IMG/VR virus record: IMGVR_UViG_3300047309_000029
Coordinates: 1 to 39,458 of that record
Reading direction: 5' to 3' (one strand)
DNA from: a virus
Length of the DNA: 39,458 nucleotides
The position numbers and the translations under genes were made by a program. Below, one piece after another: positions 37,414 through 38,960 of this stretch. How positions within the stretch are numbered: position 1 is the stretch's first letter; each line of letters opens with the position of its first letter. Under the pieces are notes generated by a model, which saw nothing but the letters and a program-made list of their open reading frames with translations, was not told the origin of the DNA and did not search any database.

Positions 37414-38058
37414 ATGCACACAGCTTGTCTCGTCCACATCACTCCTAACGCTGAAGAACTGATTTCTTACATGGCTAGGGTGTCTAACCCATCTAATCAA
37501 ACTAATACTGAGACCTCCCCTCGACTCATTAGGTATCTAATCGAGCATCAGCACTGGTCTCCATTTGAGATGGTTAATATGTGTGTAGAAATCAATACCA
37601 CTAGAAGTATAGCTGCACAGATCCTAAGGCATAGGAGTTTTAGCTTTCAAGAGTTTAGTCAACGGTATGCAAAAGTTGCTGAACGTCCACTCATGCCAGA
37701 ACTACGGAGACAAGATCATACAAATCGACAGAACAGCATCGATGATTTTGTTGATGAAGCAACACCGTCTAAGTTAAGCTTTGAACAACGGGTTACACAC
37801 CTGTATTCAGCAGCGTATAAGGTGTATGAAGATATGCTTGAAGCTGGTGTGGCTAAAGAGTGTGCAAGAGAAGTGTTGCCGATGTCGACTCCGACTAGGA
37901 TGTATATGAATGGGTCTATTCGGTCTTGGTTGCATTACTGTGACCTGAGGACTGGGAATGGTACGCAGAAGGAGCATCAAGTGATTGCTTCTCAGATACA
38001 AGATATTCTCTATTCGGAATTACCGAATGTTTGTACAGCGATGTGGTCTGATGACTGA
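37414..38058 (+). CDS. thyX: Flavin-dependent thymidylate synthase
   Basis: Makes dTMP from dUMP using FAD and methylene-tetrahydrofolate. The ThyX signature RHR-x5-E-x-S-x-R-Y is present as RHRSFSFQEFSQRY (residues 72-85). Other family parts are ISYMARVSNPSNQ at the start, HWSPFEMVNMCVEI (substrate-side helix) and AKECAREVLPMSTPTRMYMNGSIRSWLHYCDLR at the C-terminal side, with the arginine and asparagine that hold dUMP. At 214 residues it is of normal ThyX length. It works with the nrdA/nrdB pair to supply phage DNA precursors but lies 29 kb away, after terL and a long gene-free region, so it may belong to a separately transcribed block. Confidence 0.96.
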   Translation: MHTACLVHITPNAEELISYMARVSNPSNQTNTETSPRLIRYLIEHQHWSPFEMVNMCVEINTTRSIAAQILRHRSFSFQEFSQRYAKVAERPLMPELRRQDHTNRQNSIDDFVDEATPSKLSFEQRVTHLYSAAYKVYEDMLEAGVAKECAREVLPMSTPTRMYMNGSIRSWLHYCDLRTGNGTQKEHQVIASQIQDILYSELPNVCTAMWSDD

Positions 38059-38185
38059 TGATGATCGTAGGAGGCGTCTCCAAGAGGCTCTAAGGGTTGC
38101 TGAACGGGTTGGGAATACATTCCTGGCTAATAACATTAGAAGGGCCTTACAGGAGCTTCTAGAGGGGTCTGAGAGGGTCCCTTAA
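38051..38185 (+). CDS. Small basic-acidic helical protein (44 aa)
   Basis: ATG 38051 overlaps the thyX end by 8 bp. The product (MTDDDRRRRLQEALRVAERV, then NTFLANNIRRALQELLEG) looks like two amphipathic helices with alternating acid and base clusters. Translation coupled to thyX is likely. No function can be assigned. It is the last gene before a 528-bp gene-free region. Confidence 0.7.
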   Translation: MTDDDRRRRLQEALRVAERVGNTFLANNIRRALQELLEGSERVP

Positions 38186-38188
38186 ATT

Positions 38189-38216
38189 TTGACAAAATTG
38201 TTTTCAACGGTATCGC
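38189..38216 (+). promoter_or_regulatory. Candidate host sigma-70 type promoter
   Basis: A consensus TTGACA (38189-38194) is followed 16 bp later by TATCGC (38211-38216), a weak -10 matching TATAAT only in its first three bases. It lies just after the last coding stop and would read through the hairpin-rich region into the early-like genes. The -35 is good, the -10 poor. Confidence 0.35.
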
Positions 38217-38270
38217 AGTAGTAGGGGCGCAGGTCACCCCCCGTGCCCCCTTCTTTGCCTGGATGTGGTC

Positions 38271-38338
38271 GCGCTAGTTAGTTGATCTGGTAGTGCTGAC
38301 TGGGTTGATGTGGTCAAATGGTACACCAGCACTAGCGC
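38271..38338 (+). other. Two mutually exclusive 8-bp stems (switch-like)
   Basis: GCGCTAGT (38271-38278) pairs perfectly with ACTAGCGC (38331-38338). TAGTGCTG (38291-38298) pairs perfectly with CAGCACTA (38327-38334). Both use 38331-38334, so only one can form fully at a time. A 9-nt repeat GATGTGGTC occurs at 38262-38270 and 38308-38316. Confidence 0.5.
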
Positions 38339-38618
38339 TTGGCTTATTGCGAACCACTCTCAATAGCGTCCCAATCTCATGTTATCTGTAGGCAAACCTG
38401 TGCCAGTCCGCAAACCGTCACACATCACTGGCACTGAGGCAAACGTGCTGTATGTTGGATGCATCGGCAGGGAACACCAGCCGATCCGCACCTAGACAAA
38501 CGATCCCGCGAGACATCACGTCTCAGCCAGCCAGGGCCCGCCTGGTGCATCAACACGGCAGCCAGTGGCAGGGCTGAGGGATCAATAAATCACATGGACG
38601 CACCACAAAACATAATGG

Positions 38619-38666
38619 GCGGCACACTTGTAGCGCGATGCTATGGGATCGAATCCCTGCCGTACC
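38619..38666 (+). other. tRNA 3'-end-like element (possible attP or degenerate tRNA)
   Basis: TCGAATCCCTGCCGTACC (38649-38666) reads like the T-loop, T-stem 3' strand (CCCTG) and 7-nt acceptor strand (CCGTACC) of a tRNA, but the 5' T-stem strand does not match and no GGTACGG acceptor lies upstream. It folds instead as GCGGCA/TGCCGT (one G-T pair) enclosing TAGC/GCTA and GGGAT/ATCCC hairpins. Known cyanopodovirus att sites match tRNA 3' ends, so attP is one option. Confidence 0.4.
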
Positions 38667-38668
38667 TA

Positions 38669-38688
38669 TTCTCTCAAACGTGAGAGAA
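38669..38688 (+). other. 8-bp perfect hairpin before the early-like genes
   Basis: TTCTCTCA (38669-38676), loop AACG, TGAGAGAA (38681-38688). No T-run follows; instead the 17-nt repeated leader begins in its last two bases. A processing site or 5'-end stabiliser of the following mRNA is possible. Confidence 0.55.
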
Positions 38689-38703
38689 CCTTTCCACTCA
38701 CCA
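38687..38703 (+). repeat. 17-nt leader repeat, copy 1
   Basis: AACCTTTCCACTCACCA lies 10 nt before ATG 38714 of the acidic 76-residue protein, which has no Shine-Dalgarno sequence. An exact second copy precedes the next gene. Confidence 0.8.
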
Positions 38704-38713
38704 AACCCACACC

Positions 38714-38944
38714 ATGGAAACAATCAACCTTCGTATCACACTTGATCAAGAATGCCCAGTTGATGAATACTTGGAGGATGGCACTATCACTGCATACTTT
38801 CCACAAGATGATGACACATATCAAGTCATTATCAAGAACGTGGATGAATCACTGATTGAATCACTCAACCCTGATGATCTATGTGAATTCTTAGGTATCG
38901 ACTCTGAGTTTGTGATTGCCACTGAAGTATTGGAGTTTGCCTAA
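38714..38944 (+). CDS. Small acidic protein, early-like (76 aa)
   Basis: The product is strongly acidic (about 20 Asp/Glu and very few basic residues) with a pattern of short beta strands: INLRITLDQECP, DGTITAYFPQDDDTYQVII, then ESLIESLNPDDLCEFLG. No family is recognised. Small acidic proteins in the early region of T7-like phages often act against host functions (T7 Ocr is a DNA mimic), but nothing in the sequence shows that here. It has no Shine-Dalgarno sequence and is preceded by the 17-nt leader repeat. Confidence 0.75.
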   Translation: METINLRITLDQECPVDEYLEDGTITAYFPQDDDTYQVIIKNVDESLIESLNPDDLCEFLGIDSEFVIATEVLEFA

Positions 38945-38960
38945 ACCTTTCCACTCACCA
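38944..38960 (+). repeat. 17-nt leader repeat, copy 2
   Basis: Exact repeat of 38687-38703, overlapping the last base of the preceding stop codon and 21 nt before ATG 38982. The following CAACAACAAC spacer contains no competing structure. Confidence 0.8.

Follow-up and report, generated by a model that had tools for sequence, protein, structure and literature searches.

The present analysis suggests that a 528-bp gene-free region of a cyanophage genome (38186-38713) probably joins a genome-end module (38183-38389) to an early leader RNA (38384-38713). The window, by which we mean the whole 39,458-bp stretch of DNA analyzed, is an IMG/VR virus contig (IMGVR_UViG_3300047309_000029) classed as linear and is, by its sequence, a T7-like cyanopodovirus. 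Specifically, its large terminase (TerL) shares 91% identity with its counterpart in Synechococcus phage S-CBP3 and is also near those of DSL-LC07, S-CBP1, and S-SRP01, and thyX with its flanking DNA has matches in S-SRP01, S-CBP4, and other T7-like cyanopodoviruses. The region lies between the late end of the gene map (terminase, thyX) and the first early gene, the interval in which T7-like genomes have their physical ends. In S-TIP37, S-SBP1, Syn5, and S-CBP4, blastn and tblastn relatives of the late-end gene at 37414-38058 (+) occupy the final or penultimate gene position ahead of the genome end. On the other side, the first early gene (38714-38944, +) encodes a 76-aa protein of unknown function that has relatives in five loci at 66-78% identity. 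An exact 17-nt repeat, AACCTTTCCACTCACCA, stands just 5′ of the first two early genes (38687-38703 and 38944-38960), and TTCCACT-type leaders recur 5′ of early genes in relatives.

A sequence-only reading had described the region as gene-free and rich in perfect stems, and this description holds. Four perfect 8-bp stems with loops of up to 60 nt are present (38271-38278/38331-38338, 38291-38298/38327-38334, 38400-38407/38427-38434, and 38669-38676/38681-38688), against a mean of 0.34 in dinucleotide shuffles, none of 200 of which reach four; the first two do have a strand in common, overlapping at 38331-38334. Stems of 5-6 bp show no excess (22 against 23.0 and 7 against 5.8 expected), and the fold energy of the 528 nt as a whole does not differ significantly from that of shuffles (z -1.28 on the plus and -0.96 on the minus strand). 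The predicted transcript, 38463-38713, folds better than shuffled sequences (z -4.04, 0/200), part of this value coming from a 9-nt complementarity, 38465-38473/38654-38662, that is absent from the predicted fold of the relative L091. Rfam gave no match in the window even with E allowed to reach 10, and ARAGORN detected no tRNA there or in any of 26 related loci. When the region was compared directly with phage isolates by blastn, the one match was weak, to S-SBP1, at the edge of the terminal repeat. The longest internal ORF (74 aa, 38459-38683) was rejected as a conserved short protein, its tblastn match in L091 being split by a stop and a frame change.

The left half of the region, 38183-38389, is very probably a phage genome end, that is, a concatemer junction, as judged from motifs common to isolates with defined ends. 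Comparison of both ends of linear isolate records gave exact direct terminal repeats of 206 bp in P-SSP7, 237 bp in Syn5, 150 bp in S-TIP37, and 180 bp in S-SBP1; for P-SSP7, the repeat and ends have been determined experimentally (PMC3350473). Before and inside these repeats runs a motif consisting of ATTTTGACAnAAATnTnTGAAnCC, then TATACG, about 10 bases, (G)(A/G)CGCA, and a C-run, with Syn5 the most divergent. The motif holds the same position in about 25 left ends, besides or including the four isolates with exact repeats, and a pattern built from it matched 89 IMG/VR stretches. In the window, motif and core occupy 38183-38250. The conserved left flank (AAATTTTGACAAAATTGTTTTCAACGG, 38183-38210, +) belongs to a motif found at equal distance from the repeat in those 25 or so left ends, and the repeat core (GCGCAGGTCACCCCCCGTGCCCCC, 38227-38250, +) resembles an element, CCCCC(A/G)T(A)GGGGG, that both the T7 and the P-SSP7 repeat contain. 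Within the flank, TTGACA is indeed present at 38189-38194, where it had been taken for a consensus -35 box; because it is part of a motif that flanks the repeat and recurs in the same place in dozens of cyanophages, a signal flanking the repeat is the better interpretation.

The extent of the repeat follows from its two boundaries. Its start was placed 16 nt 5′ of the GCGCAG-type core by alignment to the starts in P-SSP7, S-SBP1, and S-TIP37, and its end just before ATCTGT (38384-38389, +), so that the predicted direct terminal repeat spans 38211-38383, about 173 bp, without assigned strand. The boundary motifs are common to the isolates with exact terminal repeats, and the contig spans the junction, carrying the repeat in a single collapsed copy. 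In T7, a 160-bp repeat is followed by ATCTGTT, which at the concatemer junction is a pause site for phage RNA polymerase and is used in packaging. Directly 3′ of the repeat, ATCTGTT is found also in Syn5, ACCTGTT in P-SSP7, and ATCTGT in S-TIP37 and S-SBP1; among left ends, 46 of 47 have ATCTGT or ACCTGT 100-300 nt 3′ of the repeat core, vs. 4.1 expected from shuffling. The two mutually exclusive 8-bp stems (38271-38338, no strand) lie inside the predicted repeat and are not kept in L087 or L091, which of the relatives that have the region in full are the two closest. About a third of the relatives have a covarying hairpin in their terminal repeats, with variants such as CGTTAGTT-CTACA-AACTAACG, GCTGGAT-ACTGA-ATCCAGC, and GACTCGA-TCAACAG-TCGAGTC, and the window version (38261-38300) is imperfect. 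Dyads or repeats of the TTATTG(A/C)GAA..TTCTCAATAA type occur near the right end of the repeat in many relatives and at 38341-38368 in the window. The pattern of the Syn5-type phage promoter, ATTGGGCACCCGTAA, has no match in the window.

The right half of the region probably encodes a conserved structured leader RNA, a conclusion held with somewhat less confidence than that on the genome end. The leader RNA that had been proposed for the region is supported for its right half (about 38463-38690), where it has covariation in relatives and a conserved position, and falls for its left half (38183-38389), which is genome end instead. Transcription would start at about 38463, from a weak σ70-like promoter, CTGGCA-N17-TATGTT (38428-38456, +; 8/12 matches, shuffle p 0.035); in several relatives, a promoter of the form TTGACA-N17-TATGGT or TACAGT ends 10-11 nt before a boxA. 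In the window a boxA-like element, GCACCTAGACAAACGATCCC (38488-38507, +), with the core ACCTAGACAA at 38490-38499, imperfectly resembles the host rrn boxA and occupies the same place as in relatives. Taken alone, its match to the boxA of the UW140 16S leader (13/20, core 9/10) has p 0.02-0.09 against shuffles, and the case for the window copy rests on its position, which is common to L087, L089, L091, and L016. By reading, relatives match the host form at up to 18/20 (S-TIP37), and many have a GAACCT(T/C/A)GACAACTGCATA-like sequence 3′ of the terminal repeat.

The sequence GAACCTTGACAACTGCATAG is the published target of a picocyanobacterial rrn box A primer (PMC9769826), and a scan for it gave matches mostly in Prochlorococcus and Synechococcus, with the 3′ end of 16S no more than 1.5 kb upstream at 69 of 80 loci. 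As positioned with Rfam, it lies between the tRNAs and 23S in WH7803 and after 16S and the tRNAs, before 23S, in UW140, which in both places it in the 16S-23S spacer between tRNA-Ala and 23S; a second form, GAACCTGGACAATCGAAAAG, lies upstream of 16S in UW140. Among phages, the core ACCTNGAMAA occurs in 36 of 54 left ends (0.4 expected by shuffling) and in 0 of 27 control regions, but since some of the 54 loci had been fetched by the boxA motif, the fair count is that 18 of the 30 left ends found without boxA carry the core 3′ of the repeat. These 30 were found via thyX, early genes, isolates, or the repeat edge, and six spurious core matches were excluded by eye. P-SSP7, P-SSP2, and L043 have no canonical boxA but do have the tRNA-like fold described below; S-SRP01-like phages have neither. 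BoxA recruits NusB/S10 (PMC10250234), and its role here would be antitermination; we lean slightly toward a functional element. Early intergenic terminators, which would make antitermination useful, show no clear excess. A terminator-like hairpin with a T-run (GGCCCATCATTAGGTGGGCC TTTCTTT) lies 3′ of an early ORF in L087 (3954-3973) and is a possible reason for antitermination. Many marine phages have a strong inverted repeat, CTCGACTCTCCCTGTTAAGGGTGAGGAGAGTCTCGA, before boxA (e.g., L099 325-360, L095 360-395) that is not found in the window. In another set of IMG/VR phages, a boxA (GCACCTTGACAACTGAATA or GAACCTAGACAACTGAATA) stands shortly 5′ of real tRNA gene arrays (L222, L226, L229, L256, L258, L264, L271, L272, L274, L288, and L296), which at the seven loci scanned hold 6-24 tRNAs. 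Phage tRNA operons of this kind would thus have a leader resembling that of rrn.

The next element of the leader is a tRNA-like fold, in which an acceptor stem is combined with a hairpin of 4-5 bp and a T-arm whose loop resembles that of a tRNA. In the window this structure (38617-38666, +) comprises an acceptor, 38617-38624 with 38658-38666 (bulged A38664), a hairpin at 38630-38644, and a T-arm at 38645-38657 with the loop AUCGAAU. A first covariance model (R1), built from eight marine sequences, found the P-SSP7 copy at E 1.4e-5 and further copies; a second (R2) found copies in Syn5, P-SSP2, S-RIP2, the Mediterranean fosmid phage MedDCM, and the sister locus L087 (E 3.5e-4), with no match reported in the window or in L001. 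The search for covarying pairs in relatives that had been proposed as a check gave a positive answer for this fold. Across 28 aligned copies, 98.3% of cells are paired vs. 70.5% after shuffling and the covariation score is 0.73 vs. 0.215, with double changes in 13 of 15 pairs and none of 500 shuffles reaching any of these measures, numbers that are flattered because the alignment was fitted to the structure. When the pairing partner was slid as a control, paired cells fell to 22-44%, and the sequences also adopt the fold when folded singly. Both arms of the acceptor, and of the hairpin that follows it, have changed in L089 and L016; pairs could not be counted cleanly in the subclade alignment A4 because its sequences diverge too much. 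Where isolates are annotated, the copies map between early genes, to within 15 nt; one locus carries four.

The window copy is of a divergent type, with a 3-bp T-stem and a bulged acceptor. Folded alone, it takes the tRNA-like shape in 99% of the ensemble, vs. 22 of 1,000 shuffles, whereas the minimum-energy fold of the full leader pairs 38465-38473 with 38654-38662 instead. Both the boxA and the tRNA-like fold are weaker in the window than in relatives. Right after the structure comes an 8-bp hairpin (UUCUCUCA-AACG-UGAGAGAA, 38669-38688, +), kept in position with different sequence in L091, L089, L016, and L087; most tRNA-like copies have a hairpin of variable sequence 3′ of them. Upstream, a tentative stem, 38502-38506 with 38579-38583 (38502-38583, +), encloses a variable module with a 7-bp stem (38522-38528/38572-38578); by reading it is kept in L091 (ATCCC:GGGAT), other relatives being too divergent. 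A tRNA gene was rejected, with no cloverleaf bearing an anticodon by ARAGORN and no Rfam tRNA match, and the best hit of the fold in five host genomes had E 0.3.

These elements can be assembled into a model that we favor with a probability of about 60%. At the DNA level, 38183-38389 is very probably the concatemer junction, made of a terminase-side flank, the direct terminal repeat, and ATCTGT, the last serving as a pause site for phage RNA polymerase and a cue for packaging. Host RNA polymerase would initiate near 38463, and the nascent RNA would first expose the copy of the host rrn boxA, on which NusB/S10 could load to yield a terminator-resistant polymerase. Host RNase P, perhaps with RNase Z, might then cut the tRNA-like structure just 5′ of gene 1, leaving an early mRNA that starts with a 5′-terminal, presumably protective hairpin, and tRNA-like copies between subsequent early genes would divide the polycistronic message in the way that RNase III sites do in T7. 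RNase P is reported to cleave acceptor/T-stem model substrates and phage-induced RNAs (review PMC4919922), and we put its cleavage of the tRNA-like fold at a little below an even chance. Sequence, position, conservation, and covariation are observed; the start of transcription, Nus loading, cleavage, and protection belong to the model. A bolder reading, possible although we would not yet bet on it, is that the early operon of T7-like cyanophages is handled in the manner of a host rRNA operon, with a boxA antiterminator at its start and RNase P-cut, tRNA-shaped punctuation at gene borders.

Several other explanations bear on how much of this is RNA biology. The tRNA-like structure could stay uncut as part of the mRNA, where it would affect translation or stability or lure host tRNA enzymes as a decoy, a reading that draws on its position just 5′ of start codons at several early genes, on its lack of an anticodon arm and of CCA, and on comparable tRNA mimicry known in RNA viruses (PMC5723415). 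However, bacterial RNase P recognizes the acceptor, the T-arm, and the following single base, and model substrates of this kind are cleaved (PMC4919922); we consider an uncut element unlikely, while the chief competitor to cleavage. Somewhat less likely again is that genome-end DNA alone matters, through the repeat, packaging or replication signals, and host promoters, the RNA folds being by-products. The left half is clearly a genome end, the stems that had been stressed from sequence lie there, and the fold energy of the whole region is ordinary. Nevertheless, covariation in the tRNA-like fold is strong, copies of it separate early genes at a distance from the genome ends, and the transcribed part folds with the z of -4.04 given above.

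Far less probable are two further readings. A ligand-sensing riboswitch or an attenuator with alternative stems, as the sequence-only reading had entertained, would make use of the two 8-bp stems with a common strand, and pairing of the 9-nt complementary segments 38465-38473/38654-38662 could be an alternative to the tRNA-like fold; yet neither alternative pairing is conserved in relatives, the switch-like stems being lost in L087 and L091, and Rfam gives no match at E up to 10, which leaves this proposal very improbable. The least probable, by a shade, is that a host tRNA gave rise to the tRNA-like element as an attachment site, attP. Some relatives have an integrase nearby, and att sites often lie within tRNA genes. 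Against this origin, which was rejected, 121 picocyanobacterial genomes hold no identity of tRNA length (best matches 17-29 nt), none of the five loci checked has a tRNA by ARAGORN, and the fold covaries freely and is present in several copies per phage.

Both marine and fresh waters hold T7-like cyanophages in abundance, and little is known of how their early genes are controlled. In the literature searched, which was thin on subscription papers, neither a boxA nor a tRNA-like element is reported for these phages, and the cyanophage motifs named in a survey of 104 structured RNAs are all different ones (PMC2864571). The joining of genome ends to a leader RNA with a host rrn boxA copy and a tRNA-like fold may be new, a combination that we have not seen described. 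If the model is true, the boxA copy and the tRNA-like folds at gene borders represent a new viral borrowing of the host rRNA/tRNA pathway, with viral mRNAs made and matured by that machinery. Model pairs of phage and host exist in P-SSP7/MED4 and in S-RIP2 or S-SBP1/WH7803. In addition, many cyanopodovirus records have been deposited as circular, and the boundary motifs allow their genome ends to be located by sequence.

PhotoRC-II, manA, and wcaG are likewise structured RNAs of cyanophages (PMC2864571), but they were reported with metabolic or photosynthesis genes, and the leader element described here has no Rfam match. The left end of T7 is similar in its order, with a terminal repeat bearing a CCCCC..GGGGG-type core, then ATCTGTT, host promoters, and early genes; in contrast, the window has no evident T7-like A1-A3 promoter set, and its leader has a boxA and a tRNA-like fold, neither of which T7 is known to have. 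Compared with rrn boxA and the lambda nut sites, the phage element is near the host rrn boxA in sequence and in several relatives comes soon after a promoter, whereas no boxB or N-like protein was identified here, the setting is the early operon of a T7-like phage, and the window copy is imperfect. Among tRNA-like RNase P substrates, the t-elements of plant mitochondria, mascRNA, and tmRNA also have an acceptor stacked on a T-arm with a T-loop, at mRNA borders. The phage copies differ from these in mostly lacking an anticodon arm, in having no CCA and a short 4-5 bp hairpin instead, in their place in a phage early operon, and in that their cleavage is predicted. In T7, RNase III sites split the polycistronic early transcript and leave 5′ stems. 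The cyanophage elements would likewise be structured elements between early genes that split a polycistronic mRNA, but they would do so as a tRNA-like three-way fold rather than as a long duplex hairpin.
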